DNA of 64,000 nucleotides from Golubevia sp. BC0850 (taxonomy: Eukaryota > Basidiomycota > Exobasidiomycetes > Golubeviales > Golubeviaceae): NCBI GenBank assembly GCA_012976225.1, contig JAAVVG010000017.1, positions 434,001-498,000 on the forward strand. The letters are read 5' to 3'. A program made the translations under genes and the position numbers. This document shows, piece after piece, positions 6,801-58,401 of the stretch. Within the stretch, counting starts at the first letter, position 1. Each line of letters opens with the position of its first letter. A model generated the notes under the pieces. The model worked only from the letters and a program-made list of their open reading frames with translations, was not told the origin of the DNA and did not search any database.

Positions 6801-7812
6801 AGAAGAATCTACGATAGACTACCGCACAAGTTGGAGAAGATCAACTTCGCAAGCCCTTACCACAAAGTCTTCGTTCTACTTCAAGCTCACTTCTCCAGAC
6901 TATCTCTACCAGCAGATTTAGAAAGTGATCAGAAGCTGATTCTCACAAAGGTTCTCAATCTCTTGAGTGCTTGTGTTGACGTCATGTCTTCCAACGCTCA
7001 CTTGAACGCCATTGTGGCTATGGAACTCAGTCAAATGTGCGTTCAAGCGGTTTGGGAGAGAGATTCACCTCTAAAGCAAGTTCCTCACTTCAACCCTGCA
7101 GTCATTCAAAGGTGTAAGGATAGAGGTATTGAGGATGTCTTTGCCTTAGGAGACACTCTTCCAGATCTATCGGAGAAGGAAAGGAACGATCTTCTACAGA
7201 TGGACAAACGTCAATTGGCTGACGTTGCCAAATTCACCAACGACTTCCCCTACATCGAGGTCACCTTTGAGATTCAAGATAAAGAGAGTCTAGCTGGTGG
7301 AAGTCCGATTACGATGAGCGTCACTCTGGAAAAGGACGACGAAGAAGAAGAGGACGAAACTCCAAGTGATCCAACCGTTCTGGCTCCCTTCTACCCCTCA
7401 AAGAAACTCTGCAATTGGTGGTTAGTAGTCGGTGATCCAGGGACCAAGAATCTACTCAGTATCAAGAGAGTCACTATTACCAAATCTCAGAACGTCAAGT
7501 TAGAGTTCACTCTTCCGAAGGTGAGTAGTCGTCTATGATGAGGGATTGGGGTTTGACCATCTGATGTAGCTGTACGACTGCCTTGACTGACCTTGCTCAT
7601 TGATTTTTTCTTCGACACCTCAGGGAACACACGATCGTCTCAAGCTATACTTGATGGCGGACGCTTACGTAGGGGCAGACAGAGAGCTGGAGATTCCTTC
7701 TCTGGAGGTCGCTGAGGGAGAAGATAGTGATGACAATGAGGATGAGGATGAATCGGAAGATGGTGAGGCTGCAGGAGGAGGGGGAGAAGACACGGAAATG
7801 GCAGAAGCCTAA
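864..7812 (+). CDS. BRR2: Pre-mRNA-splicing ATP-dependent RNA helicase Brr2 (U5 snRNP)
   Basis: Brr2 unwinds U4/U6 during spliceosome activation in the nucleus. Five exons: 864-3207, 3295-3446, 3538-6562, 6649-7520 and 7624-7812, giving 2193 aa, close to the usual 2100-2200. The frame is also open to a GTG at 858, but the first ATG is 864. The N-terminal Brr2 region is followed by an acidic linker (residues about 180-260). Two helicase/Sec63 cassettes follow. Cassette 1 has APTGAGKT at about 519 and DEIH at 632-635. Cassette 2 has APTGSGKT at about 1366 and DEAQ at 1471-1474, the degenerate Walker B expected of the non-catalytic C-terminal cassette. Splice junctions restore family-conserved text such as [15 protein letters not shown]. 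The C-terminus is very acidic. Confidence 0.96.
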
Positions 7813-8563
7813 GAAGAATCAAAAACGAACTCAAATCTCCCGTTCCCGCTTGCTTTCGGTCTTCAATGCTGTTTATTACATGCTATTATATTTGTATACT
7901 TGTTGAATGAATCATATTTTGAACCCGCACTTTCCTGTGTAAAGGCCCTTTTTGCTCTCCCAAGACGAGCGCGAAGTGATGGACGACCCAAGCCCACTGC
8001 CCACCTTCCCTCTTCTCTCTCCTTTCCTTCTTTCTCCACGATTTGGAGGAAGCCAAAAATAGGTGAGATTAACTCTAAACCACAACGGTCATCGTCTCAA
8101 CGTCTCCAGGAAAGTTGTTGCCGTGCCGCTTGCTTTTGATGAACTGACCGTTTCACCTCTACCCTAAACCCACTCGAAGATGATTAACTTGCTATTCGCC
8201 ATCTCTATAGCACACCTCCTCCAACGTCTGTTTCAAACATGCTCAGATTCTCAAACCTAATGAAGCTTCGGTGAAAGCGCCATTTGAGGGAAATCCCCCC
8301 CCCCTTTAGAAATCCATCGCACAGATGGCAAATAATCAATCAGAAGGAGCTGATGGCTGATGCGCTGATGGGATAGAGTGATTTGATGACGCAGTGTACT
8401 GATTGACTTTCGCAGCAACCTAATAAGTTCGGCCTGGGTTGAAATTGAAATCCAAAAGGAATTGGGCAAAGGGTATATTTGCACCAAAACAGAAAGGGAT
8501 ACATAGAGGGTAGTTCCCCTTCAACCCAGTTCCCTTCCATTAGGCTTCACACTTCTCTTCAAG
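7813..8563. other. Intergenic region BRR2 / N-acetylglutamate synthase
   Basis: This holds the BRR2 3' flank and the promoter and leader of the next gene on the same strand. A run of about ten C residues lies near 8295-8304. No coding exon or RNA gene is seen. Confidence 0.5.
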
Positions 8564-11500
8564 ATGCTTCTCTCACGAACCTCTACTAAATTTCAAGCTC
8601 TAGAAATCAGATCTTATCCCAAGATCAGCTGCAGATTGCCCTTCAAGAGAATCGAAGCAAGAAGGAGTTACCAGCATCATTCAAACTCGTCAGAGAGAAG
8701 ATCTGGAGCTATGATGAGGAATGCCATCATGCTTCGAACTGCTGAGCAGATAGCTTTACAGAAGGTGGGTAGAGAGCCAGGTTCTACCGATGAAAGAAGA
8801 AGGCGAGGAAATTAGATGGCGATCCGAGTCAGAGACTCAGAGCAGAAAAATCGCTGATAAGAGATTTCTTCCTAACCGCAAACCACTTCTTTTCTTTCAT
8901 GAACTCATCAACTTCTTCATTGTTTGATTCTCCTTCTTTTCTCTACTCATTATGGTCTCTAAAACTCGAATGCAGTCTTTGATCCTGGAAGTCTTGAACG
9001 CTCAACCTTCTCTCCGAGATTCAAAGACTTACCTCAACTCATTCGCTCCAAGGAAATCAAATCGAACCTCAAACAACAAGAACGATTCAAATAGATCATC
9101 AAAGAAAGATGAATCGAATTTAACTTTTACTTCTCCTCAAAGGAATCCTAATCATTGGAACAAATCACAAGAGAAAGAGCAGCAGCAGCCATTTATCCCA
9201 ACTGCTCATTTCCCATTACCTCCTCATCATCTTCCGTCTACTTCCGCTTCTACTCCCAACTCTCCAATTCAAATAACAACTTCATCTACATCTTTACCCA
9301 ACATATCATTATCAGACACAGTGGAAACAGTCTCCTCTTCCCCTATTCAGCAGCATACAGCTCTGGTCAAAGTTCAAGGTCCTTTCACTTCCAGACAACT
9401 CACTTCTATTGCTGATGGTTTGGTCTATCTCAAGAAATTGGGCTTGGTTTCGGTCATAGTTATGGATTCAGAAGATTGGATGAATGATTCTCCAAGATTT
9501 GGAGCTCAAGATGGAGAATGGATGAAAGAGGGAGGGGAAGAAAGTGAAGATGGTGGTGGGATTGAACCTTGGTTGAGTAGCAACAATCATGGAAACGATC
9601 GGGTTCAATCTTTGAAGTCAATGGGCAAACGAAAGCAGGTTTTCGAAAGGGAAGGAGAGGGAGAAAGGCGAAGAAACAGAACTATGGCAAGTCTTAGGAA
9701 GAGAATGTTAATGGACACCTACAGATTAGCTGAATTATTGAATGAGAAGGGTGCAAATGCTTTACCTTTCGGAAGGCCTATCATGAAGGTTGACTGTCAA
9801 GAAGCTAGGAAAGCTCATGATGAATGGGGAGAAGCTCGAGATAAGGATCTAGATCCATCATCTACCCAATCTGCTACCACTTCTTCAGACTTTCAATTCA
9901 ACCTTCGTTCACCTTTAACTTCAGACGACAATCTCTCTTCCTTAAGAACTACTCTATCTCTGAATCAAATTCCAATTCTAGCTCCATTTGCAATCTACTC
10001 GGATCCTCAGAAGAATGGAGCTGAAAGGAACGTTCCGGTTAGAGCTGATGATCTGATGGTTGGTTTAGCTAGAGATATGGCCAATGCTGGAAGAAGGGAT
10101 GAGAGTCGATTGAATGAGGATGGCGAAGTTGGATTAGATGAGAATGACGTCGATATGACTCCCCTTCGATTGATGGTGATGTGAGTATGCTTTCCTTTCG
10201 TCTGCTTCGGCTTCTTCGCGGCCAACAGCAGAGAGCTTCCATTCTGACTTCTTTCTTTTGATCTATCTACCTCCTCTCGCAGCAACCGAGAAGGCGGGAT
10301 CCCATCTCACGCTCGAGGAGGAAATCCACATTTATCAATCAACTTAGCATCTGAATTCTCTCGGATCCAATCTACCTTCATCTGGTCTTCAACCCATCCA
10401 ACAGCACTCTCAAATCTTCGAATGGTTACCGATTGTCTTTCTTATATGCCAAAGACTTCTTCAGGAGTGGTAGTCTCTCACAGATCACCTCGATCTTTAA
10501 TTGCTAATCTAATCACCAACAAAGCAGCTCATTCACCTTCTCTACCTCACAATCTACTAGCTTCAAAGAAGAATGTGAGACATACTCCAACCATCGTCAG
10601 ACCAGGTTTAAGCGTCAAGGTGGTTACCAAATTCGAGCAAATCGATCAGGCTAAGCTGACGGAATTGTTAGAATTTTCTTTCGGAAGGGAATTAGACTCT
10701 GAGAATTATTACGAAAGGTTACGAAAAAGTCTGGACTTCTTAATCATTTCAGGAGATTATAGTGGAGCTGCGATTGTTACTAAAGAATTTTCACCATTCG
10801 ATTCTCCGGATCAAGAACCTATTGCTTATCTGGACAAATTTGCTGTCTTACCTTCTCTTCAAGGTTCTGGAACCGTCGACTTCTTATGGGGAGCTTTGAG
10901 AGATGAAGTCCATGGCTTAGGTCTATTAGATGCTTTGAACGACAATGGAGGAAAAGAAGGTTTTGGCAAAGGAAGAGAATTGGTTTGGAAAAGTAGAGCT
11001 GATAATCCAGTGAACAGGTGGTATTACGAGAGAAGCAATGGGTTCGTCAAGATCAACACAGAGGTCAAGAAAAATCAGGGAGAGGAGAATGAGAAGACTA
11101 CCCCGACTACTTCAGCTTGGTCGATGTTCTGGTGTGATTCAGAAGAAAGGATCTCTGAGATGAGTGGTGAAAGGAAGCTGAAGGCTGAAGCTAGCAGAGA
11201 AGATGTCATTGAAAACATGAACTCAAATCTTAGAACTAGAAATCGAAGAAGTTGGAAAGGTGGGAAACAAGTCGAGGATCAAGATAATTACGATGATGAT
11301 TATCTCGATGAAGAAAGGTCGAATCGAGCCTCTAAAGCTCGTTCTTCTATTCTCCAAGCTCTAGAAGACGACGATGAAGAGTCAGACAACGAGGATGAAG
11401 ATGATCTTTCAAAAATCAGGTCAAATCACAACATCTCAAAGAAAGATCTAAGGAAAGCTTTGGAAGCTTACAGTAATTCTCATTTGTCAGAAACGACGGC

Positions 11501-11663
11501 TCCTACTTCAAAGAACTCCATAGCAAACTCTTTTTCGTTTGGATCTACCACTCTTTTGAATCACTCAAGTCAGAGGTTGTTGCCAATCATTGCACCTGAA
11601 GAAGATGGGAGGTTGCAGAGGTGGAGGGATTGTATGGGAAGCATTCCTTCGGCTTGGAAGTGA
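8564..11663 (+). CDS. ARG2: Mitochondrial N-acetylglutamate synthase
   Basis: First enzyme of arginine biosynthesis: acetyl-CoA plus glutamate gives N-acetylglutamate in the mitochondrial matrix. Exons 8564-8764, 8976-10180 and 10283-11663 give 928 aa. The N-terminus ([20 protein letters not shown]) is Arg/Ser/Thr-rich like a mitochondrial presequence. Family text includes [19 protein letters not shown] at the start of exon 2, [20 protein letters not shown] across the second junction, and the GNAT domain with [16 protein letters not shown] and [21 protein letters not shown]. The C-terminus ends in the typical [11 protein letters not shown]. It is longer than most fungal homologues because of Ser/Thr-rich N-terminal segments and an acidic, disordered insertion (about residues 750-880) between the GNAT core and the conserved tail. 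The first intron (211 bases) is the least certain join. Confidence 0.93.
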
Positions 11664-11979
11664 ATGGCGAAAGTGGGCATAATGAAAGATGCAGTGGTGC
11701 ATTGGGGTCTTGCAGCTTTGACGCCACCTTGTAAAAACGATATAATACGCCAATAGAATAGACACAATCTTGTCAAACTGCATCACTTGTGATTTAAAGC
11801 AATTTCACAAGACTCAGACACGTTTCCTCCTTTGCTGAAGATCTTGCTTGGTATCTCATTTCATTCGTTTATACAATTCAGTCATCAGATCTCTGGCGAG
11901 TTAGAACAACGCATCGACTTTTATAAACAGCCCAACATTTCATTCATTCTCCCATTCCTTTCGACAACTTCAATCTCCT
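11664..11979. other. Convergent 3' flanks of ARG2 and Pil1-like gene
   Basis: The two genes end facing each other about 320 bases apart. Only AT-rich 3' untranslated sequence is apparent. Confidence 0.5.
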
Positions 11980-14351
11980 CTAATTCTTCCCGCCACTCAA
12001 CTGATTCTCCCTTCCAGCTCTAGCAGCATCGCTCAAACTTTGTTGATCCTCTACATTCCCACCCGTAGCATTTGCATTTTCACCATCAACTTCCTGATAA
12101 ACGGGTAGATTCTCCTCCTCAGCTTTCTGAAAGTCATGTTCACCTCTTCTAACAACAGTACCATCTCTTCTAATTCTAGCTTGTACTTGACCTCCAACAT
12201 TCAGATTTTGAGAACTCAATCTATTGCTCTCAGCGATTCTTCTAACTTCTTCTCTTTCAGCTTCAGCTTCTTGAGCTTTGGATTGATAATTTGAATGAGC
12301 AGCTGCACCACTTAAAGATCCAGAACCAGAACCAGTTAAAGATTGAGCTTGATTTGGATCTGAAGTAGAAGTGGAGGTGAAGGTGTTACTAGGTCTTCTA
12401 GGAGTTCCAAGACTTCCGGTTTTTGGACCACCTTGACCAACTACTGGACGACCGGTCTCAGCAAAGGTAGGGTCATCCGGAACTGAAGAGGAGTTTGAGA
12501 ATGGATTTTCAGAAGACTTCTCATTTGGATACCCTGAAGGACTAGTTCCAGCTCCAGCTAGATTATGAACGCTTTGAGTTGGAGGTAAGATAGCACTTGG
12601 AGAGTTTAAATCTGAAGGATTAGGAGTTGGAGGTTGAGGTGCGTTTACTGGTAAAGGTGAAGCAATTCTATCGTTAGAAGAAGGTAGAGGTGGAACTCGA
12701 TGTTTACTTGGTGAACGTTCTGGAAGACTTGGAGCTGCTCCCACGTTAGGAGTTGAACTTGAAGGTAACAAAGTAGGAGAGAGATTTAAATTCGGGTTCA
12801 AAGATCCACCTTCTGGTAAAGGAGAAAGATGAGCCGATTGATTTGAATCCACACGGTTTAACGAGTTTCCGGTTGAAGAACTTGGTAATGGTACAGGACC
12901 TTCATCCATTAATTCTTCAGCATGAGAAACTCCATAACTTGCAGTTGAAACTCTGCTAGCTGAACCACTTACGACCCCAGCTGCTGAGTTTAAAGATTCT
13001 TGAACGTGTCCAGCAGGTGGAACTGAACCATCCGGTCTGAAAGATTCTTCTAAATCTGCTAATTTGACGATTGGTTGATAGTTCTTGAGAGCAGGTTCAA
13101 TAGCACTTCTGATTTCTGCTGTTCTGTTAGCTCCGGACCAAGAAGGTTCTCCAAGTTGAGGCTTGGATGGGAACTCTGGTGATTCAGACACTGGAACTAC
13201 GTGAGTGAGAAGTTTTCCGTAACGTGAGATTAGAGCGATTTTCTCCCCGAGCTGAGAAGTGGAAGGGAAAGAGGAGAGGAGAGAGGATTAGATTTTGGAT
13301 GAATCCGCAAAATGAGAGTGTTTCGAATTTTTTCACGTACTCACCTCAATCATACTATCAAAGATCCCTTCATATCCATCTCTGAGAGCAGTTCTCTTCA
13401 AGGCAGCTACTCTCTCTTCGTCTGCTGAATCTTCCTTTTCTAGTTGCTTGAGTTGGTTCTCTAGATCGACAATCTTAGCAGTCTGATCTTTCTTAGCACG
13501 TTCCTTTATGAGATGGAGTAAGGGAAAGAGGGTCAGTCTTGGGTTTCGAAAAGTGGGCGTCTCTACTCTATCTCTTCTAATCCATGGCTACCCTCCACTC
13601 CGTTTCCACCCTCCACCCCTCCCCTTTCCTTCTCTGAAAAAGCTCGACTACTCACAGGTACCAATCCATGTAACTCTTTCTTGATCGCGACTCTCTTAGC
13701 TCTTCTAGCAGCCAAGTCTTTCTCTGGAGATCTGACTTGTTTCAACTCTCCTCTGGCCAACTCAGATCTCTTTGCATGAGCTTGATGAAGGTCACCGATA
13801 GTTGACAGAATATAGGCTAGACGATCAGTTCTACAAATGAGAAGAGAAGGCAGGTAAAGAGTCAGTCCATCGACCCCACGCTACCCATCCTTATCACCTC
13901 GCGGAACCACCTTCGATACTCACACATCGACCAAAGCAGCATCTCCGACTGCATCTTCCCTTTTGCCAGGAAAATGATCTTGACCCCATCTATAGGTAGC
14001 TTTTGCAGCAGATTTGCTTTCTCTTGCTAAGGCTTCGTTATCGATTGAAAGGTTCTTTAGAGAAGTTGAAAGGACGTGGAAGGTTCTTGTAGATTCGAAT
14101 CTTGGGTCATAAGAAGCTAACGAATTACGTAGAAGATGTGGAACCGCACCTGTGTAAGATGAGATTCCAGAAGAGGTTGATTGATTGGCAGCGTTGGATT
14201 GAGATTGTGGAACTGAGGCTGCAGTGTAAGGATCAGAAGAAGAGGATGAAGCAGATTGAGAATGAAGTTGTTGCTGCTGTTGAGCGTAAGCTTGAATTCC
14301 AGCTGCAGCTTGTTCGGCTTTATCTCTCGCTTTTTGAAAGAAACTTGTCAT
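11980..14351 (-). CDS. PIL1: Eisosome core component, Pil1/Lsp1 family (BAR domain)
   Basis: Pil1/Lsp1 proteins form the membrane-bending scaffold of eisosomes under the plasma membrane. Exons on the minus strand: 14351-13924, 13830-13656, 13503-13345 and 13251-11980 (677 aa). Pil1 hallmarks are LLRNSLASYDPRFE, SLKNLSIDNEALARESK, the DAALVDVTDRLAYIL join across intron 1, the helical segment with LRDGYEGIFDSMIE, and GEKIALISRYGKLL. The BAR part ends near residue 290. About 380 residues of Ser/Pro/Asn-rich low-complexity sequence follow, roughly doubling the length of yeast Pil1 (about 340 aa). It is divergent from the next gene, with a promoter of about 235 bases between them. Confidence 0.93.
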
Positions 14352-14586
14352 GTTTAGGATAAGAGTTGTTGGTGGGGCAGAAAAGGCAAGAGATTCAGAG
14401 ACTCTTTAAGCCAAAGTTGGCAGCACAGCCTCAACCTCTCATACTCGCACAGCTTTCTAGCAAATTCCATTGTTCCATTGGATCGACACTTTCACTTTCT
14501 TCCAAAACAAAAGGAACTCGAATCCATCCCAATCCAGCGGAGCAGAGAAGCTATCTATCCTTCGATCCATCTCGTCTCGCACGGAA

Positions 14587-16773
14587 ATGGTGGAATCAGA
14601 TCATTCAGACGCCATTCAATTGGAGCCTATCCAACTTCCGTCTACTTCAAAGTTATTTCCTTTCCCTGGTTTCACAAGAGAATCAGCCGAAAAGGTCAGA
14701 GAGCTGTTGGATGAGAACCACAAGGTGAGATTTTCGAAAAAAACAGAGGCCTCGCAGGCTCGCAAGCCCTGAAGAATTGGTTTACTCTGAATGTCCACTC
14801 ATACCAAGCAAGCTTGAATTTAGAATCATTCTTTTTGAATTCTAGGGGTCCCTTTCGCCATTTATTTCATAAGGGAGAGAGCCATCAAATCTATCGACTG
14901 AGTACATCAAATAACTGACTCAGACCCCTTCTGTTCACCTCCACCTTCTTCAGACCTTTCACTGCTTCTTCAACGATTCCCATTTCCACAATCATCTCTC
15001 TCATCATCTCCTAGCTTCCCTATCTCTGGGTTCTCCAGCTTCAATCTTCCCTCGAATCCTTCAAAAAGAGGACTTGGACCCTTCTTTCCATCTGAACCAG
15101 AAACCGCAGAAGCCTGTCAAGATCACGGAGGACAATTGGCTTGATTATGTCGAAGAAGCAAATAGCAAGAAAGAATCTGGTGGAAGTGAGAAAGATGGTG
15201 CCATCCTCTATTGGTCTTACTTGGAGTTTTTCGACAAAGAGATCAGAGATCATGGAATAGGGAAGACTTTAGAGAAGTTTGTGTTCAGTGAGGAAGGGGT
15301 GGAGAAAGGATTGATGCTGAGTAGGGTTATGGGAGGTGCCTTACATCCTTTCATCCACATTGGTTATGGAGCTGAGTTCGAGATTGGAGGAATCGTCGCT
15401 GAAGGTGAGTTCGATGAGTCGGGTCGAGAAGTCTCACATCTCACAGGTCTTTCCTCATCTTCGTTTCTTGCTCTCTCCACTCTGAATCCTTAATCAAATA
15501 CACAGGTCTGGCAATGACAATCTGCACCAGCCCTCTATCCTCTTCGCTCTTCCCTTCCAACTGGCATGCTCTGGTCGGTCCCAAGTCTACTCTAGCTCTT
15601 CAATATTCAACCTCTAATTCATCTAATATCATTCAGAACATTTCAAAAAGAATCTCTTCAATGGTAGTCTCTCAAGACACGCAAGTTTCAGAGGATTCAC
15701 AGTCGAACTCAATTTCTCAACCTGTTTCATCTTCAAATCCAAGAGCTGGACTTTCGATTTTCAGTCTCACAACTTTGATGTCCCTAGACTCAAGACTTGC
15801 ACCAGGAACTGCCACTACTTATTCATCGGAAGAGAAAATGAAAGATGTTTTAACTGGAGAAGTCGCGAATACGATTGAAGAGTATTGCAGGAGATGGATC
15901 GTAGTCGATGAAGATCTTGAGGATCCTATCTCTTCATCAGATGGAGCTGGATGGTGGACCAAGTTGGAGGAGCTTGTTATGTTCAACACTTTACTTTTAG
16001 GTTCGACTTCTAAACCAAATTCAACCAAGTCTTTAAAACATGATTTCTTCTTAATGCATTGCAACAATTCTGGAATCTTTTTACCAAGCTTATTACCCCT
16101 TTTGAGCAAAAACTCAAGATCTTTGCTGCTACATTCATATTTCAGAACTATCATTTCGGTTTGGGTGGCAAGAGGGAGACCTCGGTTTTATATCGATGAG
16201 ACTTTGAATACTTCAACTGAGAACCCTATTGATCCGATTAAATTGAAGAAGTTGTATCAAACTTCTTCAGATGATGCTAAAGGAGAAGACATCAAGAGCA
16301 TTGGAAGATCGGACGAGGACAATCCTTGGCTTGGTCTATTAGAAGCTGTTAGCCATCATACAGATGAACATCTAGTTAAAGCCATCAGGACCCTCAGTTA
16401 TTGGAACACTAGATTCTCAAATCTCGGATCCGGCAGTTTTGGTCTTCAAGAAGAAGCTTTGGAAGCTCTCGCACTCAAGGTCTTGGAAAAATCAAAAGTT
16501 CAAGGGAGTTCTCCGACCTCGGAAGCAACTTCAAATGACCAGAAAGGGAACTCGAAAGCACCATCCACTTCTTCCAATATCAATGACTTCTCGCTTTTCA
16601 AAGGATTGGAGAATTTAGATGGAAATGCTTTTGTTAGGACTGCTGGACAATTGATGTTCACTCAGGGATGGAGAAAAGATGAAGATGGAGAAGGGTTCAA
16701 CTGGTCTTTTGAAGGTCCTGGATTCGACGAGACTTGGGAGGGAGATGGTGAGGATCGAAATGGAAGGAGATAG
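14587..16773 (+). CDS. Questin oxidase-like family protein (DUF4243)
   Basis: Exons 14587-14724, 14954-15404 and 15506-16773 encode 618 aa. Family features include an early His-rich stretch NDSHFHNHLSHHLLASLSLG, then YWSYLEFFDKEI, GGALHPFIHIGYGAEFEIGG, EGLAMTICTSPL (restored by splicing intron 2), RGRPRFYIDE, LLEAVSHHTDEHLVKAIR and FVRTAGQLMFTQGW near the C-terminus. The family includes questin oxidase (GedK/AgnL-type Baeyer-Villiger enzymes), but many fungal members are not in polyketide clusters. No polyketide synthase is seen here, so the substrate cannot be named. The start was chosen as the ATG that splices in frame to the His-rich exon. Confidence 0.85.
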
Positions 16774-17512
16774 AGCTTTTTGTTCCCTTGCTTTTTCCTT
16801 TCAATGAAATGATTCGATTGAGAATTGTTTCAGAGTAGAATGTTGGAAGTGTCTAACTTGTACGTTCCCATCAAGTCTCGATGCTTCCGGCGATTGAGTA
16901 GATGGGTAAGCTATCATCGCTTGTTTCGCAGCTTCGACTCTCGCACTCGAGAGCATCGTCCGTCTTCCATCTTGGGAACCGATCTAAACTTGATTACTTG
17001 AGTAAGAAAAGGGAAGCGATTAACAGTCTATGTTGACCGAAGCAAACTCACGAGAAGCTGAGTGGTGGCAGGCTAAGCAAACCGTGAGTTTACGCTCCCT
17101 CATCGTTGGTAAGCTAGCGCGAGACTTCACTATCTCGGACTCAATTGAATCACAGGCGAACAAGCTTCAAAGTGTAACATCGGAAAAAATTCATTCATTT
17201 GGGAAAATCGAGTGACAGGTGATTGGTAGTCCATTCGAGAAAAGGGAGAAAGACAGTAGATCAGTTGACGGCTTCAGCTCGATCAACAAATTGAGAGATC
17301 AAGAAACAAAGATAGAGTGGAGCTAAGGGAGCAAATGATGATGGGTTGAGATGGGTGACAGATAGCCTGGGAACAAAGAAAGAGGAGACAGTGACTAGGG
17401 TGACGATTTTCTCCAGGGGAACATTTTGAAAGATCAAGAAGCTAGATTTTAGAAGATGGAAAGGGTGAAAAGAGATGAAAGTGGATAGAAGTAATGGTTC
17501 GATGAACAAGAT
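16774..17512. other. Gene-poor stretch; weak small spliced ORF candidate
   Basis: No recognised gene. A possible mini-gene starts with ATG at 17030 (MLTEANSREAEWWQAKQT) and meets a good GTGAGT donor at 17084. A CACAG acceptor ending at 17156 rejoins the frame to a stop at 17215, giving 37 aa. The splice signals are good but the product is unrecognised and tiny. Confidence 0.25.
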
Positions 17513-37892: not shown

Positions 37893-40800
37893 TTAGTTTG
37901 AAGAATCTTCACCACGCTTGACAGTGAAAGCGTGAGATAGGTAAGAGTCGTAGGAAGCTTCTTCGGTCTCATCGGTGAAGACTCTTTGAGCTCTGAGGAG
38001 GAGTCTGTACTTTCCGTCCTCGACGTCTTTGGTTGATCCATCGTCTAGAGTGACGGTACCCTTGAGAGATTGAGTGATGTATCCGTAGGAGTCTGCTTCT
38101 CCAGTGATAGAGTTTCTACCGAGGTATCTCTCCTGGTAAACCATTCCGACTGTTTCGACATCTCCGAAGAGAGCTCCGTCGCACTCTTCTTCGTCTCCAC
38201 GTTCTTCAACTTCCTCAGCGAAACGCTTGGCGGCAGCTTCGTGATGACCACGTTGACGACGAATGAAGTGACGCTTGGAGGTAGTTCTGAGGGCAAGAAA
38301 CGAGAGAAGAAGTCAGAGGCGGGACAGACGAGAGAGGAAAGTGGAGAACAAGAGAGACTCACGAAGCGTCTTGGATCTTGATGGTAGGAGTGAAATCAAC
38401 GTCGGCTTTCACTAAGGAAATCTCATAGAGAGGAGTTCCGAAATTAAGCCTGTACAAGAGGACTGGCTGATTGTCGGCGTCTTCGAGGGAGAAGGTCTGA
38501 GAGTCGTCCTCGACTGGAGTTTCCATAGCGTTGGTGACAAGAGCTGGCAGGTTGAATCCGAAGATCTCGTCACTAGAATCGAGAACTTGTTCGTCAGACA
38601 TCTTTCCGACCAGTCCCATGTAAGGGATGGTGATGGATCCGTGCTTTGGAGACTTCATAGATTCGATGACGATGGAGCCGGAGTAGACTGGAAGGCTCTT
38701 TGAATCGGCAGTTGGAGGCTTGAAGCTCACTTCAACCTTCTTACTCTTTCCTGCAGCTAGAGTGAATTCACGGTCGCTGTAAGTGACGTGAGCATGAGTG
38801 TCACTGAGGGGGACTGGGTAAGGAGTGAAGAGGACTGAGTCTGAAACGTTCTTGGAGAGAGCGGTTCCGGCCCAGACGTGATGTAGCTTTTAGGAGTTGA
38901 ATGGAAAAAGTAGATGAGTTAGTTGCCTTGTAAAATTAGAAATGGGAATCCCAATCACTTACCTTGTAAGTTTGAGAGACCTTGCCGGTGTTGGTGACAG
39001 TGATCTTCTTGACGTTGTCTGCGAACTCGGTGTCGTTCAATTGAAGAGCACCTTTTAACGCCAGAAAGAAAGAGGAGAGAACAGACGGTTTAAAAAGGAA
39101 CGTTTGAGACCGATGAGAACGGTAATGGCTCGACTTACCAGGAGAGACACGAGTGGTGTGAATAACCGCCTTGTAGACGTCGATTAGGCCAGGACCAGCT
39201 TGAGCCATAGTTTGAAGACGATCACCAGACTTGGACTCCTTAACTGGGTTGGCAGTATGAGTGAAGATGTCACGAAGAACAGTTGCCGAGTCCTTCTTTC
39301 CATTGATGGATCTGTAGAGACCGTAAGATCCAGAAACGAAAGGAGTAGCCATGGAAGTACCAGAGATGATGGTGTACTTTCCAAGAGCTAGAGGCCAAGT
39401 AGAGAGAATGTTTCCTCCGGGAGCTGAAACACGAGGCTCGAATCCGAGATTGTAGGTTGGGTTGTAGGTAGAGAAGGAACTCATCAAACCTCCGCTTGAG
39501 ACATCCTCCTCAGTGAGAGACTCGAGGTTGGAGAAGTCGAGAGTAGTCTTGGTTCCAGCTGCGAATTGGTTGACAAGGAATTGTCCGTCTTCTCTGGTAA
39601 GAGAAGCTACCTGTTGATCATCGAAGGAGGCAGTGACGTAGGTGATTGAAGCTGGCGCCGGGGTGTTGTAGACTAGAACGTACTTTCCACCTTTGTCATG
39701 GATGTTAGTGAACTTGGTAGCAAAAGTGCATGTACCCCTTGCGACAACGACTACCTTGTTAGAGAGATCAGGTGTGTCATCTGGAAGTGGATCACAAGCA
39801 TCGGCAGTGACTTCTGGGTCGGTTGAGGTGGCGTAAACTTCGAGAGTTGAGGATCCGTCGAAGGTGAAAGGCATTCCAGTCAAGTAGACGATGTCACCAT
39901 GTCCATTGGCAGGCGAAGGAACGGTCTTGTACTGAGAGTGAGAAAGGAAAGAAGAAAGGGAGGTTAAAAATTGCACCCCTCTCTCGCTGAGGTTCCTCAA
40001 CTCTCGAAGCACTTACTCCAGTCAATTTTCGGTTATTAACAGAGCCAACGCCGGTACCGCTCTTAGCGACTCCTGGAGAGCTACCGTAGAACATACCTGT
40101 AAGAGAGAGAGAGAGAGAGAGAGAGAATGGTGAGCGGAAGAAGAGCGGATGTGGAGGTGAGGAAGCTTCCACCTACCTTGAGCACCATCGTTTCCAGCAG
40201 CCATAACGACTGGTGTTCCGAGATCAGAGATCTTGGAGGCGACGGCAGCTGAAGGAGCTTGCCACCAACCCCCTGGGCCTCCGAGGGAGAGAGAAATAGC
40301 GTCGACTCCATCGAAGAAAGCACGCTCTGGAGAAGGCGAAGAAGACAGAAGATTAAGAAGTTAGGAGGTTGAAAAAGATAGAAAATTGAGAAGGCAGAAA
40401 ATTGAAAGGGAGGTTGGAAAGTTCGATCGTGCAATCTCTCCGCGTCCTGACTCTTCTCGGTTCTCAGAAGTGCAACTTTCTCACTCTAAGAACAACAACA
40501 CTTCGGGAAATAGTCTTACTCACCAAGTCCGGCGATGATTACATCATCAGAAGTGGAAGTCTCCTCTCCACAACCGAAGACTCTGTACATCTTGACATTT
40601 CCTTGTGGGATGACACCAGTGAATCCTAATTCGGTATCGTTGGCGACAATGGTACCACTGACGTGAGTTCCATGTCCACTTCCAGTACAGTCAGCGAAAG
40701 GATCGTTATCAGGTTGAGGAGTGTTGGAACCAGTGTAGTCGTCTCCGACCAAATCGTATCCTCCCGAGATTGGGCATCCCTTGCCGAAACATCTCTTTCC

Positions 40801-41752
40801 GGAAGCTCTGCCTCCGTTGAGAGCTGGGTGGGTGTAGTCAATTCCAGTATCCAAGACAGCAATAGTCTGACCCTTTCCGTAATGACCTAAAGCGTGTAAT
40901 TTGTCTACTCCAGTCATGACGTGAGGTTCGAAAGTATCCTTTCCCAAGTTGCTGTCCCTCTTCGATTTACCAGAAGAAGAAGAATCTCCAGTAGCAGCAC
41001 GAACGAAAGAATCAGAAGCTGGAGTAGCGTCAAAAGCAGCTGGCTTGTACATTCTGATGGGATGAACGTCGACTACACCTGGAGCGGTGTAGAGAGTTGA
41101 GATGTCCTCATCTGAATCTAGACGGAGAGAGAGTCCGGTGAAAAGCTTGGAGTTGTAGGAATATCTCTTGGTGTACTTGGACTTTCCACGCTTGGACATG
41201 TGTTCGTGGAAGAGATCGTGGACCTTTGAAAAGGAATGGAAGAGAACGTTAGAGAGAGAAGTTGAGGGAGAAGAATGAGCCGCCTCGATCAGATCTCCTT
41301 CCCTTCCACCCTGACCTCTTCGGGAACTCGAAACAGATCTCGTTTTCCTTTCCGCATTCAGTGATTTCTATACTTTCTCTCTGTAGCCGTGACGGGACGT
41401 GACCTGCCATCGAATTCAACCCCAGCTCTCCTACCCTTTTTCCTACCACGCCATCGAATAGATAACTCACCTCTCTCTTTCCATTTCTGGCAGCCTCCTT
41501 TGCGTCAGATTCGTTCTCGAATTCGACGATGTAACCTCTTGGTAAGAAGACCTCTTTAGCTCCAGTTCCATCAGGTTTGGTTGCAGAGTGAGAAGTCTTT
41601 GCTTCAGCTTCCTTCCCAGCTCCATATGGAATTGGACCTTGAAGTTCTGGAGCAACGTTGTGAGATTTGTGTTTGTGTTGATGTTTTGATTTTGCCTCTA
41701 CTTGTAAAGCCAAGAAGGAGAGAAAAAGAGAAGAAAAGACAGTGAACTTCAT
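37893..41752 (-). CDS. Secreted subtilisin-like serine protease (S8) with PA domain
   Basis: Eight exons on the minus strand: 41752-41471, 41223-40524, 40326-40177, 40096-40017, 39931-39139, 39051-38963, 38886-38363 and 38286-37893 (1003 aa). A signal peptide (MKFTVFSSLFLSFLALQVEA) is followed by an inhibitor-like propeptide with RGYIVEFENESDA. The triad is Asp219 (AVLDTGIDYTHP), His278 (GSGHGTHVSG) and Ser597 (ISGTSMATPFVSG). A protease-associated domain lies at about 465-500 (VVVVARGTCTFATKFTNI), between His and Ser, and an Fn3-like region follows the catalytic domain. The layout is that of large fungal 'minor extracellular protease Vpr'-type enzymes. The frame is open upstream of 41752, but the signal peptide fixes the start. 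One intron carries a (GA)n run beside its acceptor. Confidence 0.94.
40101..40126. repeat. (GA)n microsatellite in a subtilase intron
   Basis: About 24 bases of GA on the plus strand, CT on the gene strand, form the polypyrimidine tract immediately before the acceptor of exon 4. Confidence 0.85.
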
Positions 41753-44404: not shown

Positions 44405-45105
44405 ATGCCAACTCATCATCATTCTCAGATTCATAAGATTCATTTTTCAAAGGAGAAAGTTCTCAATTTGATTCACGATCCTCAGAGGTTCGTCAATACC
44501 TCGACTCAGGTCATCGAGATGACTCAAGATGAAAAGGATCCTCAGAAATGGAAAGGTTAGTAGAGCTTCCTCTTCTGTCTATCTCTCATTCCCTTTTCTT
44601 TAGTCTGTCGTCTAAATGATTCATATAAGATTCTACTGCATCCACCTTCTGGCCAGCTTCACCTTTGATGATACGCAGACCCCTATCCTATCTCTCACAA
44701 CTCGCCTCCCTTTCCTCTTCCACTTCCACAGTCACCGAGAATCTAGAGCTCATCTTCAACAGCACAACGTCTTTCATAGCCAAGTTCGTCCCTTCTGATA
44801 CAGGTCTCCAGACAACATGTTGGGCGAGCTTGGGAGTCGAAGTCCACTCGACATTGGAAGTTACGGATACCGACCCTCAATCAAAGAAATCAAGCTCTGG
44901 CCCAGACGAGAAGCAGAACCAAGTTAAGAACGAGAGTAGAAATGGGAATGGCTCACCTCAAACCTTCGTCATAGAAACTTCCACCGTCAGTGCTCCTTTC
45001 TACGTCTTTTGGATCGTGAAGCGTCAGTTCGTCGCAACTCATTCGGTCTTCGGAGAAAGAGTCACGGAGAAGTTGAGAAGGGAGGAAACAGAAACTTCGA
45101 ATTGA
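44405..45105 (+). CDS. Uncharacterised SRPBCC/DUF7053-like fungal protein
   Basis: Exons 44405-44555 and 44630-45105 give 208 aa. There is no signal peptide. A first helix-like stretch (KIHFSKEKVLNLIHDPQRFV) and later beta-rich hydrophobic text (FIAKFVPSDTGLQTTCWASL, VSAPFYVFWIVKRQFVATHS, ending in VTEKL) resemble the alternating pattern of fungal DUF7053/SRPBCC-type proteins. A charged, Ser/Asn/Lys-rich loop interrupts the middle. The donor is GTTAGT rather than the usual GTGAGT. The family assignment is tentative and no function is claimed. It is divergent from the SKP1-like gene, about 295 bases away. Confidence 0.6.
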
Positions 45106-46114: not shown

Positions 46115-46630
46115 TCATTTGAAATCATGGTTGTTACCGGAGAAATCTTTCGAGATCTTTTGAGCGCGCTTCCATTCGTTTCCGTAGCCTTCGAAATCTT
46201 CAGATGATTCTTGGGCACGCTTCCATGCTGGTCCTCCTGATCCTCCCGAATAGTAGTCGGTAGATGGCTTCTGAGCGCGCTTCCAATCGTGGTTGTTACC
46301 GGAGTAGTCTTTCGAGATCTTTTGAGCGCGCTCAACCTGATATCAAAGAGGCAGAGAAGTTACGGGGGCGGGAAGAGGTAGAGAGTCAGGACATTGTCAC
46401 CCCCAAAAATTTAGCTTATCTCAATTTGATGTCTCAACTTCTTTCTATTATTGAGCTAGACTTCAGAACCGCCTTCCTTCCACAGCCTCTCCAAAGAGGG
46501 GCTGCTTCTTCAACTCCGACGACCTACTCCTATCCTCCTCTCCTCTTCGTCGACAACTCACCTCAATTGGAGCAGCAGAGACAGCGACAGCTAGTAAGAC
46601 GACTGAGACTATAGATAAGGTGAACTTCAT
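46115..46630 (-). CDS. Kex2-type multi-copy secreted peptide precursor
   Basis: Two exons on the minus strand, 46630-46562 and 46336-46115, encode 96 aa. Exon 1 is a clean signal peptide (MKFTLSIVSVVLLAVAVSAA) plus PIE; a phase-0 intron follows. The mature part is four tandem cores: AQKISKDYSGNNHDW, AQKPSTDYYSGGSGGPAW, AQESSEDFEGYGNEW and AQKISKDFSGNNHDF. The first three are each followed by Lys-Arg (42-43, 62-63, 79-80), and a single Arg (26) precedes the first. Lys-Arg is the Kex2 cut site, so release of 15-18 residue peptides ending in Trp or Phe is inferred. There is no Cys and no CAAX tail. Cores 1 and 4 are nearly identical in DNA. A TATA-like element lies about 90 bases upstream. The family is unrecognised; the role could be signalling, adhesion or a cyclised peptide. 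Confidence 0.82.
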
Positions 46631-47356: not shown

Positions 47357-50300
47357 TCACTGATTCGCTACCACCTCTTTCAACGTTCTCTCCCAATCTT
47401 GACTTTGCCTCTTCAAAAAGATCAACATATCACTTTCATTTTTCATCATCAATCTTTCACTTCTAGCCAACCTTTCCACCTCTTTCCAAATTCTACCTTC
47501 TTCCTTCCATTTGATCAAACAACTCTCCTCTCTAAAACCTCTAATCTCTCTCTCCTTCTCCTTTCTAACTTGCTTCAATTTCTCATAACTTTCAATCTTT
47601 AACTTCTCTAATTCTTCAACACTAGTTTCTTGAGCCTTGGAGATTTCATGTCTAGCTTGTTCATCAAATTCAGCTCTTTCTTTGAATTGTTCGATTTGAG
47701 ATTGGGCTTCTTCCAATTTGGCAGAGAAAGTTGAAGATTCTAAGGATTGAGTTTGAGTTACTGAATTCAGAGTTTCTTCAGAAGCTTTGAGTTTTGCTTC
47801 TAGAAGTTTGATGCGCGCATCCTTTTCTTTCTCTCTTTCTGATGGGCCTCTAGTTTCTTCTCCATCTCCTTCTTCTTCATCTAGAACGGATTCGACTTGC
47901 TTCAATCTTGAAGGACCTAACCTCAGTCGATCTCCACCTGAAGGACTGTCTTCGATTGAATTTGAATGATGATAAGCAACACTCTTATCCAATCTTCTAT
48001 TCTTCATGAAATCGTTCATCTCATCCATCAATTCATCGTCCATTAGAAGACCACTCCCGACTGAGCTCAAAGCACCCATTCCCATAACATCAGAATCATC
48101 TCCTTGACCTCCATCAGTCAAAAGACCATTTCCAGTCTCTAAACCAAGGCCAGAAACATCGAAATCTAGACTTTGATCTGAAGTTGCTGAAAAATTCTCC
48201 TCTCTTCTCGGTCGACTTCCTCTTGAGCTTGTTTCTGCTTTGGGAGCGAGTCTTGAAGACCTGTTCAAAGCTCCAACACTGGGAGATTCCATCAGATTCT
48301 CGTGTTCTCCATCTGGAAGATCTTTGAAACTCGTCAAAGGAGATAATAATGAACCGAACCCATTCTCAGATAATGGAGACAGCGAATTCAGTTCTATCGT
48401 GTCGTCTGGATTCTGAAGAGGTGAAGAAGCAGAAGTCGACTTTCTTGTAGAAGTGACTTCTTTCGATTTCGAATCTTGAGGCTGAGATTGGTTCTTATCG
48501 GAAGGTTCTGAAGTTTCGGTCGACCAACTCTTGTCTACTAGGTTTTCAATTGATTGACTATTCCTCCTTCCACTTCGATCGCTACTTTCTGACGTCTTCA
48601 TCTCCTCAGAGGTGGTATTTGGACTTGGTGCAGGACTTAAAGAACTCCTTTTCTTCTCAACTTGTCTATGAATGAAATCTTCAGAGGCACTAGGATCGAT
48701 CCCAGCTTTGATCAACATTTCAATCAACCCATCTTCCAAGTTTCCAGTCATTTGCTCTGAAGTGACTCTTTGACTTGACTTTGAAGGTCCAGCCTCTTCT
48801 GAGTCTCGATCTGGATTGATTTGAATGATTGGAGGTGGAGTTGAGACTGGAGTTGTTGAAATGTTACCAATACTAGATTGATCTTTGCTGACAGCTTTGG
48901 ATTGCGATAGAGAAGAGCTTCCTCTCGAAGGACTTGAGCCATGAGATTTGCCAGTTTTCAGAGCTGAAACAGGACCCGCAGGAGGTTTCCCACTGACGCC
49001 ACTTCCTGAAGAACCAGGTCCAGAGCTTCCATTTGAATTGAATCCCATACTACTCAGTCTTCTCAGGCCTCTATCCCTAGCTTCTGGTGTTGCAAGACTT
49101 GGAACAGATTGCTTCGATTGTTGTTCGTGTAGTTGAGCGAGACTTCTACTAGATGGTAGTTTACTCAGTTGATTCATTCGACTCGCATTTGATGAAGCGA
49201 CTGATCTTTTTGAAATTGAATTTACACTACTAGGAGTGCGAGTTGGAGATTGATCGGATCGATTATCTTTAGTTGGAGTGGTAGATTGAATTGATGAAGC
49301 TTTTGGAAACTTGATACCGATTTTCGATCCTTTAGAAGCTATACTAGTGGAACTTTTGGGAGCTTCCCAAGCTTTGGCTCTAAATTTGACTGATTCACCT
49401 CCGCTGGAGGATCCACTTTGAGGAGCTTTTGAAGATGGAGTGATTGAAGGTTTGGAGGAAGAAGGGGCCTTAAAGCTATTTGGAGGGCCTGCAACTGGAA
49501 GGCTTGATCTATTCTTGTTCTTCGTGCTGAGTTGAGAGTCGAAAGCTGAAGGTGGACCATTTGCTGTAGCATTTGATCTAGGCGGTTTGATTCCTGGGAC
49601 CGGAAGTTTGTTCTCTTTCTCTAAGTTGCCCTCGTTCCTCGGATCTGTAGCACCCCCAGCTATTGGACTCGATAGTGAGACTCTTCTTGAATGTCCACCT
49701 AAGCCAGCCATCAAATTCTCGGAAGCAGCAGTTGCAGAAGTGAAAGTTGAGCTTGCGTCACTGTTCCTATTTCGACTTCTTCTTCCTTCCTTTTGATCTC
49801 CATCTAAATTAACGGACTTGATACTTGCATTTGAAGTGACTGAGGTAGATCTGTTCCTTTGATGAGAAGGATTATGTCCAGAAGAGAGTTTAGACCTTGG
49901 AATTCCACCTCCCCCTCCAATCGACATCCTAGATCTAGGTTTGCTCCCACCATTCCCATTCCAACCTAAAGTGTTGGCTCTTGATTTTGCTAAATGTCTT
50001 GGAGAAGCTCTGTTAGAAGTAGTTGAAGAAGAAGCGGAAGGTATCCCAGAAGCAGTCGGAATTCCAGATTTGAGTTGATTCATAGATTGATTCCTTGATC
50101 GTGATCTAGGCAATTGACTGTTTGAATTAGCATGAACATCAGTCATGACCGAACCTTGCCTTGCAACTTTACTCTGAGGAGATTTGATGATTGGAGATGA
50201 TCTAGAGGTGGAAGGTCCTGGTATCAATCTACCCAATTTCCCTCTGGCTCTTGTTGGAGTAACTTCACCTCCATTTCCATTTCCTTTATCAATATCCAAG

Positions 50301-50920
50301 TGCTTGTTGACAGAGTGTATGACTCTACCGAACTCATCCATTGAAGCTTGACCCTCATTCTCCTCCTGACCCTCCCCTTCTTCCTCAGAATTCCAACCAC
50401 TCTCGATCTCTGATTCTATTTCACTCTCAATATCTACTTCTTCTTGACTTGGTAACCTTCGTTTACCCAGAGAACTCCTTGGCCTCATCGCATCACTCCT
50501 TTCTCTTTCTCTGCCCTTTCCCTTTCCAGCTGATTGGAGTTCACCTTGCTCCGGTTCATCTTGCTCGTCTGGACCTCCTTCCTCCCTGTTCTGATTTGAA
50601 ATTGAAACTCTTCCTTTGTTGTCTCTCGGCCTGAGAGACCTCATAGAAGCTGTTGGTAACCTGGTGGATGGTATGGTAGACCTAAAGCTTTTACTGCTGG
50701 GTAGAGTTGAATTCTTGGCGATTGAAGGTGATGCAGAAGGAGTTGGAATCCCAGACTTTGAAGGAGAAATTGTTCTTCGATTTGAATTTGATTTGAATTT
50801 GAGGGGAGAAGTGAACGAGAATTTGGAGCTTGAAGGTGGTTTCAGTTGGCCAGTGCTAGTAGTACTGGTAGTTGGGCTGTTAGCACCTCGTTTGTTTGGA
50901 CTAGGAGGCATCATATTCAT
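47357..50920 (-). CDS. Large Ser/Pro-rich protein with SxIP motifs and C-terminal coiled coil
   Basis: A single uninterrupted exon of 1187 aa. The start is the ATG opening MNMMPPSPNKRG; the frame is open further upstream only from a GTG. The first 700 residues are Ser/Pro/Arg-rich and basic, with an acidic patch near 160-195. Several S-x-I-P motifs sit in this basic region: SGIP 56-59, STIP 81-84, SGIP 285-288 and SGIP 291-294. Such motifs bind EB1 at microtubule plus ends. Heptad-like charged sequence fills the last 180 residues (LLEAKLKASEETLNSVTQ through ELEKLKIESYEKLKQVRKEK), suggesting a coiled coil. No named family is recognised; a microtubule-tip adaptor is my inference from motif plus coiled coil. 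Confidence 0.8.
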   Translation of the reverse strand: MNMMPPSPNKRGANSPTTSTTSTGQLKPPSSSKFSFTSPLKFKSNSNRRTISPSKSGIPTPSASPSIAKNSTLPSSKSFRSTIPSTRLPTASMRSLRPRDNKGRVSISNQNREEGGPDEQDEPEQGELQSAGKGKGRERERSDAMRPRSSLGKRRLPSQEEVDIESEIESEIESGWNSEEEGEGQEENEGQASMDEFGRVIHSVNKHLDIDKGNGNGGEVTPTRARGKLGRLIPGPSTSRSSPIIKSPQSKVARQGSVMTDVHANSNSQLPRSRSRNQSMNQLKSGIPTASGIPSASSSTTSNRASPRHLAKSRANTLGWNGNGGSKPRSRMSIGGGGGIPRSKLSSGHNPSHQRNRSTSVTSNASIKSVNLDGDQKEGRRSRNRNSDASSTFTSATAASENLMAGLGGHSRRVSLSSPIAGGATDPRNEGNLEKENKLPVPGIKPPRSNATANGPPSAFDSQLSTKNKNRSSLPVAGPPNSFKAPSSSKPSITPSSKAPQSGSSSGGESVKFRAKAWEAPKSSTSIASKGSKIGIKFPKASSIQSTTPTKDNRSDQSPTRTPSSVNSISKRSVASSNASRMNQLSKLPSSRSLAQLHEQQSKQSVPSLATPEARDRGLRRLSSMGFNSNGSSGPGSSGSGVSGKPPAGPVSALKTGKSHGSSPSRGSSSLSQSKAVSKDQSSIGNISTTPVSTPPPIIQINPDRDSEEAGPSKSSQRVTSEQMTGNLEDGLIEMLIKAGIDPSASEDFIHRQVEKKRSSLSPAPSPNTTSEEMKTSESSDRSGRRNSQSIENLVDKSWSTETSEPSDKNQSQPQDSKSKEVTSTRKSTSASSPLQNPDDTIELNSLSPLSENGFGSLLSPLTSFKDLPDGEHENLMESPSVGALNRSSRLAPKAETSSRGSRPRREENFSATSDQSLDFDVSGLGLETGNGLLTDGGQGDDSDVMGMGALSSVGSGLLMDDELMDEMNDFMKNRRLDKSVAYHHSNSIEDSPSGGDRLRLGPSRLKQVESVLDEEEGDGEETRGPSEREKEKDARIKLLEAKLKASEETLNSVTQTQSLESSTFSAKLEEAQSQIEQFKERAEFDEQARHEISKAQETSVEELEKLKIESYEKLKQVRKEKEREIRGFREESCLIKWKEEGRIWKEVERLARSERLMMKNESDMLIFLKRQSQDWERTLKEVVANQ

Positions 50921-51362
50921 TCGAATTGAGGAATTGTAACTCTTGTGATGGAATTGATTAAGATGATGATGATGATAAAGAGGTAGACGAAGGGAGGGAA
51001 GAATTGGCACAACAATCTTCGAACGCGATGAGAATCACATGCAGCCTCGCTCACAGCACTGCACAACAACACTTGAATCTCTTTCAGATTCACATGTATG
51101 GAAGCTGAAGAGCAAGACTCAGAAACAAAGAGTAACCTAAAGCTAGAAAAATCTGAGCGGAGAGAAGTGCTTGCATTCGTTGCTAGCGTATCTAACAGAA
51201 AAACAGGTGATGAAGTCAAATTGATGGTATTGGGGTTGGTTTGAAAGGAAGGACGTTGAACTTAGATCAAAGAAATATGTATGAGGCTTGAAAAAGAGCA
51301 TAAGAAGGTAGAAAGGTTTGTGATGCTTGGGTAGGTCGGTTTCCAAAGAGAACAACACTCAA
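50921..51362. other. Intergenic region upstream of SxIP gene
   Basis: Promoter of the preceding minus-strand gene and 3' flank of the small peptide gene; no exon seen. Confidence 0.45.
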
Positions 51363-56995: not shown

Positions 56996-58401
56996 CTTGA
57001 AGGAGAGTTAATGGATTTGAGAGTCGAAGAGAAGAGTTGAAAGATAAGGAAAGATTAGACCGGCTAAAGAATGAAGGGAGATAGTAAAAAATAGAGGATT
57101 GGAGGAAGTGACAGACCAGCTGGCGACTTGAAGAAGAAGAAGAAGAAGAAGAAAGAGTAGTGGGTGAACTTGAGTTGAGGAAAGGGAAATTAGAAGTCGA
57201 TCCCTGGACTTTATACCTTTTTTGAGGATCCATTTTAAGGCTTTGGTCTTCCACAATGAAGGAACTTCTTCAACCTTCTCAGTCTTCTAATGAGAGGCCT
57301 TCTCCTGAAACGGGCTCATCCCATCCCTAGGGAAGAGAGAATGTCGACCAACGGCCTGGAAATTCCCGATGGAAGCTCTCAATCTTTACTCATGCTAATT
57401 TTCTCCCCGATCACGGTCGTTCAATAAGGTATGAGGGCTTTCGTTCACTTTATTAGAGCACCATGCTAATTTTCTCTCTGATCACGGTCGTTCAATTAGG
57501 TATGAGGGCTTTCGTTCACTCTATTAGAGCACCCGCCACTCATGCGACGCCCCCACCTTGAATCCGAGGCCACCCGTTCAATCCGAGACGCAGCTCCTTA
57601 ACCTGTCGTCTATTGCGCAGAGATCTGGATTTCAAGCCTTCTTTTAAAGTAGCTGGAAGGTAAACAGGGCCGAAAAGGTATTAACGAATCAAGAAAGGAT
57701 CGAGATACCGCAAAGAATGAAGGTTTTCACTGACCGCTTCAATGTTTCAACTTCGCAAGAAAGGAGCAGAACTTCAACTCAAATGAAACAGAGCTTTTTA
57801 GGCTCTCACCATCTCAACAGTTGATGATGATTGAGAACTGAAAAAGGGTCCGTTCTGATTGCATATTCGGCAGCGGAATCGACTTTTTTTTGAACTTCTC
57901 TCGTAATCATTTCGGATTATCATTCATTCACACGGTCATCAGACTGGATAGTTCAAGTCAGATTCTGAGGAAATGGGAGAAAAGAACAGACAGCTTCCAG
58001 TGTTTTACAAAGATGGAGGAGAAGGGAAAAAGAGAGTGATTTGAAATTCGTGTACAGAGAGAGAGAAAAAAAGAAAAACGAGATCCAATAATTGCGTGTA
58101 TGATTGATTGAAACCCATGCTAGAGAAGTGAATGTGCGAGAAAGAGATAGGGAAACTCCAGGAGAAACGCAACAACAGAGAGTATGAGAGAGAGAGAGAG
58201 AGAGATTAGGAGAACGGGAAACCAAGGATGATGGATAAAAGAGCTCGAAACCTGAGGGAAGAGTCAACATAAAATCCCATTGAAGGAATTTTCCAAAAGA
58301 GAAAAGAAAATGAAACTTGCAAAGTGGTAGACTGGAAAGCACTTTTGGACTTAAGATCGGATCTGTAGACCTTGAAGTTGAAACCTCTCGAAGTTCGGGT
58401 G
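56996..58401. other. Gene-free stretch of 1.4 kb with a tandem duplication
   Basis: Holds a TATAAA on the minus strand at 57215-57210 (promoter of the preceding gene), a GAA run at about 57131-57152, a 71-base tandem duplication at 57391-57532, a GA run near 58185-58206, and the 3' flank of the zinc-finger gene. No exon is supported. Confidence 0.5.
57391..57532. repeat. 71-base tandem duplication
   Basis: Units 57391-57461 and 57462-57532 start CATGCTAATTTTCTC and end TATTAGAGCAC. They differ at four positions by eye. There is no coding sense, and no similarity to a known element is recognised. Confidence 0.92.

Follow-up and report, generated by a model that had tools for sequence, protein, structure and literature searches.

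KEX2-processed repeat proteins (KEPs) yield peptides that occur widely among fungi and mostly have no assigned function. Two rules have been used to recognize their precursors: cutting at KR or RR should yield at least four fragments (Le Marquer, 2019, PMC6339444), or at least three similar repeats should lie between Kex2 sites (Umemura, 2020, PMC7329392; the FIMO search of Le Marquer, PMC6339444). Cores of 9-24 residues were reported as the most abundant class in Dikarya, with the exception of basidiomycete yeasts, and the same work described both an XSDW motif and basidiomycete KEPs with an alpha-pheromone-like layout (Le Marquer, 2019, PMC6339444). Orphan status is common in this group, since 2560 of the 7878 KEPs counted in one survey had no homologue (Umemura, 2020, PMC7329392). 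Linear KEP peptides with a Trp end have been detected by mass spectrometry in mushrooms, among them Lentinula and Pleurotus peptides with the ending -AADW and Trp-ended peptides from Coprinopsis (Vogt, 2022, PMC9769878). Mushroom KEPs were also expressed in Komagataella (Pichia) pastoris in that work. According to that account, six kep deletion strains had no phenotype, so even a confirmed KEP may show no visible role in culture.

Three further systems are close enough for comparison. Rep1 of Ustilago maydis, a repeat protein processed by Kex2, gives rise to peptides that form fibrils on the hyphal surface; most of them are amphipathic, with lengths of 35-53 residues, and the amphipathic repeats of Rep1 and Hum3, proteins of 652 and 828 residues, are given as 31-55 residues, those of Rep1 alone as 34-55 (PMC4617103). 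The precursors of ustiloxin-type compounds consist of a signal peptide and Kex2 repeats, and Tyr was present in 65.6% of the repeats of KEPs with a DUF3328 neighbor, against 38.2% in the comparison group (Umemura, 2020, PMC7329392). Qsp1 of Cryptococcus leaves the cell as a pro-peptide, and its maturation takes place outside, through the cell-wall serine protease Pqp1 (PMC7537855); CNAG_00150 of the same genus is termed only a serine endopeptidase in the text of another source (PMC5158083).

The window discussed here is the whole stretch of 64,000 nucleotides that was analyzed, with a G+C content of 44%, and it belongs to a genome of 25.77 Mb in 64 contigs. A two-exon gene of 96 codons is predicted on the minus strand of the window, from 46630 to 46115 (Table 1). 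The predicted intron has a GTGAGT donor, an ATCAG acceptor, and a single branch-like CTRAY site (CTGAC) that begins 53 nt before its 3' end. Of the acceptors tried with the donor, the one at 46336 results in the longest repeat-bearing product. An alternative acceptor 6 nt further on (46330) keeps the frame and gives a product of 94 codons. Use of the acceptor at 46308 would lengthen the product to 113 residues but change the reading frame and lose the repeats; it was dropped on codon use.

Table 1. Features of the predicted precursor gene, of its neighborhood and of the mating locus (window coordinates unless a contig is given).
Feature	Position	Strand	Basis
Start codon ATG	46630	-	reading of sequence
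Exon 1, 69 nt: ATG, signal peptide and start of pro-piece (APIE); encodes MKFTLSIVSVVLLAVAVSAAPIE	46562..46630	-	sequence
Intron, 225 nt, phase 0, predicted	46337..46561	-	splice signals in sequence
Exon 2: VER, four cores, stop	46115..46336	-	codon use clearly coding-like in this frame only, out of six
Core 1 AQKISKDYSGNNHDW, 15 residues, Glu-Arg before	46283..46327	-	translation
Lys-Arg site 1	46277..46282	-	translation
Core 2 AQKPSTDYYSGGSGGPAW, 18 residues	46223..46276	-	translation
Lys-Arg site 2	46217..46222	-	translation
Core 3 AQESSEDFEGYGNEW, 15 residues	46172..46216	-	translation
Lys-Arg site 3	46166..46171	-	translation
Core 4 AQKISKDFSGNNHDF, 15 residues, plus one C-terminal Lys	46118..46165	-	translation
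Stop codon TGA	46115	-	reading of sequence
Frame of 1217 residues, no Pfam match, 727 bases upstream of precursor gene	47357-51010	-	open frame
DUF7053 frame (domain of unassigned function), E 1.7e-8, convergent, downstream of precursor gene	44629-45105	+	Pfam
PA-domain subtilase gene with inhibitor I9 and Fn3-like parts	38359-41367	-	Pfam-matched frames
Small frame, 61 codons, end NCVIA, 1.1 kb from STE3	L019 (C62:364174-364359)	+	CAAX-like end and place

The product begins with a predicted signal peptide, recognized by eye from hydropathy as a hydrophobic stretch of 13 residues (GRAVY 2.99); behind this stretch comes V-S-A, a cut-like site after which cleavage of the signal peptide is likely. 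Exon 2 then reads VER, AQKISKDYSGNNHDW-KR, AQKPSTDYYSGGSGGPAW-KR, AQESSEDFEGYGNEW-KR, AQKISKDFSGNNHDFK-stop. The preliminary description had proposed a signal peptide and four tandem cores of 15-18 residues, the first three followed by Lys-Arg, with AQ at the core starts, D-(Y/F) in the middle and Trp or Phe at the core ends. All of these elements were found again in the translation, with cores of 15, 18, 15 and 15 residues and Lys-Arg pairs at 46282-46277, 46222-46217 and 46171-46166. Two details absent from that description are the Glu-Arg, instead of Lys-Arg, that precedes core 1 and the Phe-Lys-stop with which core 4 ends. Cores 2 and 3 are strongly unlike cores 1 and 4, which is unusual for peptides that one receptor recognizes. 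All four cores are hydrophilic (GRAVY -1.0 to -1.8) and free of Cys, and in each of them the acidic residues equal or outnumber Lys and Arg; Tyr is present in cores 1, 2 and 3.

The coding character of exon 2 was assessed with a codon-use score for which six long frames of the window served as the training set. The repeat frame scored +19.8 bits and the five other frames -15.5 to +0.9, with the intron, read in its three sense frames (+4.9, +0.8 and +4.5), as the yardstick of noise. The codon adaptation index was 0.63 in the repeat frame; the other frames of exon 2 had values of 0.45 to 0.53, and the frames used for training had 0.67 to 0.77. For the repeats, adjacent pairs of segments bounded by (K/R)R were compared in the six frames of the window (n = 43), and the two highest similarity scores (0.29 and 0.24) both came from the predicted precursor gene; the best score overall was 0.18 across 60 copies of the window generated by a first-order Markov model, with a mean of 44.4 pairs each. 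The pair of cores 1 and 2 is absent from this comparison because no dibasic site precedes core 1. When the cores were compared directly with each other, the six scores were reached by 0, 0, 0, 0, 1 and 14 of 20,000 shuffles. The repeats go beyond chance. Between units 1 and 4, 5 of the 16 codons are different; three of the changes are silent and two exchange one aromatic residue for another (Y/F and W/F), and swaps restricted to aromatic residues are the pattern expected if the core ending matters.

The precursor had no match at E <= 10 in a protein database of 5.8 billion sequences, where 31 candidates shared words with it; the database includes named Ustilaginomycotina proteins, and a distant short relative could miss this threshold. 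A protein search of its own genome detected no second copy beyond its two exons. One match on contig C3 (E = 0.17) was translated in three frames and rejected as a Lys/Glu-rich stretch without the KR-repeat layout. The codon pattern for WKRAQ, which also admits AGY Ser codons, occurs at 15 places in the genome, three of them in the precursor gene and the other 12 isolated, compared with four for a control pattern. The D/E-W-K-R pattern is useless for finding other KEPs because it occurs at 1336 places (the first of them listed) compared with 1111 for its control. No Pfam family matched the precursor; the matches in NCBIfam (one, E 0.041) and among PDB entries (four, E 0.43 to 1.5) were discarded as meaningless. 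In the literature text searched, the core strings led to two Campylobacter proteome papers of no relevance, and none of the papers listed for smut KEPs deals with the precursor gene. The peptide "family" proposed earlier is not supported, as neither the protein database at E <= 10 nor the rest of its own genome gave a relative. Conservation between species would be the best indication of function, and the database search yielded no sequence that could show it.

That the gene is not functional, and merely a chance open frame carrying short repeats, would agree with the lack of a homologue at E <= 10 and with a gene known here from DNA sequence alone. Against this explanation stand the codon use, the splice signals, the signal peptide and the statistics of the repeats, and we consider it very unlikely.

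The enzymes required for processing were sought in the genome. A Kex2 gene is located on contig C5, where PF01483 and PF00082 (P and subtilase domains) match at one locus, and its frame contains, as judged by eye, a hydrophobic stretch resembling a membrane anchor and an acidic tail. This Kex2 was read from two open frames and compared with the protein database, and identities were taken from the best 120 of 4612 proteins. Among these best 120, it is 83% identical to one metagenome protein, 82% to the proteins of Violaceomyces palustris and Acaromyces ingoldii, 80% to that of Thecaphora frezii, 79% to that of Ceraceosorus bombacis, and 76-78% to those of Tilletia species. Among the matches listed, identities were 59-64% to Malassezia, 60-63% to Pucciniomycotina and 58-66% to Tremellomycetes, with part-length alignments at 70-71%. 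In a kexin tree of 27 sequences, made of this Kex2 and 26 others hand-picked from the best 120, it nests inside Ustilaginomycotina with support of 100/99, its own row filling 46% of the columns. The host is therefore regarded as a basidiomycete of Ustilaginomycotina, and the basidiomycete origin suggested before is borne out by the 82% identity to Violaceomyces and Acaromyces. The genome also contains S10 serine carboxypeptidases at seven loci (19 exon matches), one DPPIV_N gene, with the domain of Ste13-type peptidases (three exon matches), and at least five subtilase loci, Kex2 included.

From these parts a processing route can be proposed. The signal peptide would direct the precursor to the secretory pathway, Kex2 would cleave after the three Lys-Arg pairs, and a Kex1-type carboxypeptidase would trim the Lys-Arg tails and the final Lys. 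The products would be linear hydrophilic peptides of 15, 18, 15 and 15 residues with Trp or Phe ends. Glu-Arg is a poor Kex2 site, and for this reason core 1 may retain the N-terminal extension APIEVER. The computed [M+H]+ values of the four cores are 1762.81, 1828.81, 1747.67 and 1707.81, or 1835.90 for core 4 with its last Lys kept; those of the des-Ala pyroGlu forms are 1674.75, 1740.75, 1659.61 and 1619.74.

As for class membership, the three KR sites give four fragments, the number asked for by the fragment rule of Le Marquer. Under the three-repeat rule there are four similar cores, yet KR flanks just two of them, cores 2 and 3, on both sides. The two other features expected of a KEP, a signal peptide (by eye, from hydropathy) and a Kex2 in the host, are both present. 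We hold it to be highly probable that the precursor is a KEP in the wide sense; layout, coding signal, repeats and Lys-Arg sites together support the secreted multi-copy Kex2-type precursor of the preliminary description. The fuller statement, that it is a KEP from which Kex2 releases linear hydrophilic peptides serving most likely as a soluble extracellular signal, is considered probable when taken together, since it consists mainly of the processing route. The role is the weaker half of this statement and is reached by exclusion: the functions of mating pheromone, wall-coating repellent, cationic antimicrobial and cyclised RiPP are judged unlikely for these peptides, and the most likely role left is that of soluble extracellular signal or interaction peptides, addressed either to the producing fungus or to partners around it.

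Among the roles set aside, a Rep1-like repellent, with peptides that assemble on the hyphal wall, is suggested by Rep1 itself, which is Kex2-processed, forms fibrils and comes from the same subphylum (PMC4617103). The precursor shares with Rep1 (Kex2-processed) and Hum3 (putatively so) the character of a repeat protein; unlike their longer amphipathic repeats as described in that source, its cores have only 15-18 residues and are hydrophilic at the GRAVY values given above. A repellent of this type has a very low probability.

A cyclised RiPP of the dikaritin (ustiloxin) type, in which UstYa-type (DUF3328) proteins cross-link Tyr or Phe oxidatively, is highly improbable. Dikaritin precursors have the signal peptide, the Kex2 repeats and the aromatic residues in common with the gene described here, and the Tyr of cores 1, 2 and 3 recalls the higher share of Tyr-holding repeats in KEPs with a DUF3328 neighbor reported in that survey (PMC7329392). 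The window was scanned with Pfam at E <= 0.001, in 35 frames of at least 150 residues and one frame of 87 residues. Unlike what is expected beside a dikaritin precursor, neither a UstYa nor a tyrosinase match was obtained among the 35 frames, in agreement with the earlier remark that no UstY-type oxidase is seen in the window, although a UstYa with shorter exons could escape. Three HxxHC strings exist in the six frames of the window, and they are far apart in frames of 97, 25 and 52 residues. The UstYa family PF11807 had no match genome-wide, and as the control genomes likewise gave none, this absence is unproven.

The neighborhood of the gene raises another possibility. The PA-domain subtilase gene lies downstream, 4.7 kb from the precursor stop, and an additional frame that extends to 42316 is without a match. 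For the four non-Kex2 subtilases, the chance expectation of one within 5 kb on either side is 0.0016, in a test chosen after the gene had been seen. Since Qsp1 of Cryptococcus is matured outside the cell by Pqp1 (PMC7537855), the neighboring subtilase is a minor lead. By analogy, the precursor might encode an orphan signal of Ustilaginomycotina, independent of pheromones and with several messages per precursor, which is finished extracellularly by the serine protease encoded nearby in the manner of Qsp1 and Pqp1. The nearness of a PA-domain subtilase in a genome with at least five subtilase loci, Kex2 among them, is consistent with such a system, but the DUF7053 frame sits between the two genes, the closeness was spotted after the fact, the parallel with Qsp1/Pqp1 is one of analogy, and the Lys-Arg sites alone already explain the cutting. 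We regard a Qsp1-like system as extremely doubtful. Elsewhere in the window, a questin oxidase-like gene in two frames (14915-16773, plus strand; PF14027, E 4e-30 and 5.1e-35) lies about 30 kb from the precursor with no sign of a link, and two tandem copies of a 71-base unit with 94% matches are found at 57391-57533.

A STE3 receptor together with a CAAX pheromone is the usual mating system of basidiomycetes. The genome has one STE3 receptor gene, on contig C62, and in the 30 kb around it no small frame other than the NCVIA frame has a CAAX-like end; by its ending and place this candidate is likely the gene of a CAAX mating pheromone. With a DPPIV-type peptidase, STE3 and this CVIA-ending CAAX candidate 1.1 kb away all in the genome, the predicted KEP is unlikely to be the mating pheromone. 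No STE2 match was found in the genome, a weak negative as the control genomes were likewise silent. An alpha-type mating pheromone, although the layout equals that of ascomycete alpha-factor (signal peptide, repeats and Lys-Arg) and basidiomycete KEPs of such layout are on record (Le Marquer, 2019, PMC6339444), is extremely unlikely, given the STE3-linked pheromone candidate, the missing STE2 match with the same reservation about the controls, and cores that are other than those of alpha-factor, differ from each other and all start with AQ, without the X-Ala/X-Pro dipeptide spacers that mark Ste13 trimming.

The reading as a KEP that releases linear soluble peptides thus places the gene in known company. 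The precursor had been called undescribed; as a kind it is not, as KEPs have been published, including in the sources cited here those with a basidiomycete alpha-pheromone-like layout and with Trp-ending cores. The layout is known from many fungi, and the cores themselves are orphan in the searches made. The precursor adds to the KEPs a smut-lineage orphan with exact masses to seek, and the picture of the class is unchanged by it. It differs from the KEPs described there in core sequences without a match, in KR flanks on both sides of cores 2 and 3 only, and in the distance of cores 2 and 3 from cores 1 and 4.

The mushroom KEPs with Trp ends offer a further comparison. Core 1 ends in HDW and core 3 in NEW, compared with -AADW in the mushroom peptides (PMC9769878) and XSDW in the reported motif (PMC6339444). 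SGNNHDW of core 1 and SGVAADW have four of seven residues in common, with S-G and D-W equally spaced; 351 of 20,000 shuffles score as high, the second lowest count of eight comparisons, and the seven other comparisons were reached by 302 to 17,214 of 20,000. With such weak statistics, membership in the mushroom -AADW group was dropped. The cores are also longer than those of the Trp-ended mushroom KEPs and have no X-Ala/X-Pro repeats of the kind described for Pleurotus 1091723 and Coprinopsis 490115. Like Lentinula 2599, Pleurotus 1091723 and Coprinopsis 490115 as presented in that source (PMC9769878), the precursor has Trp before a dibasic site, and like KEPs in general it combines a signal peptide and a short precursor with tandem similar segments separated by Lys-Arg, whose cores fall within the reported class of 9-24 residues.
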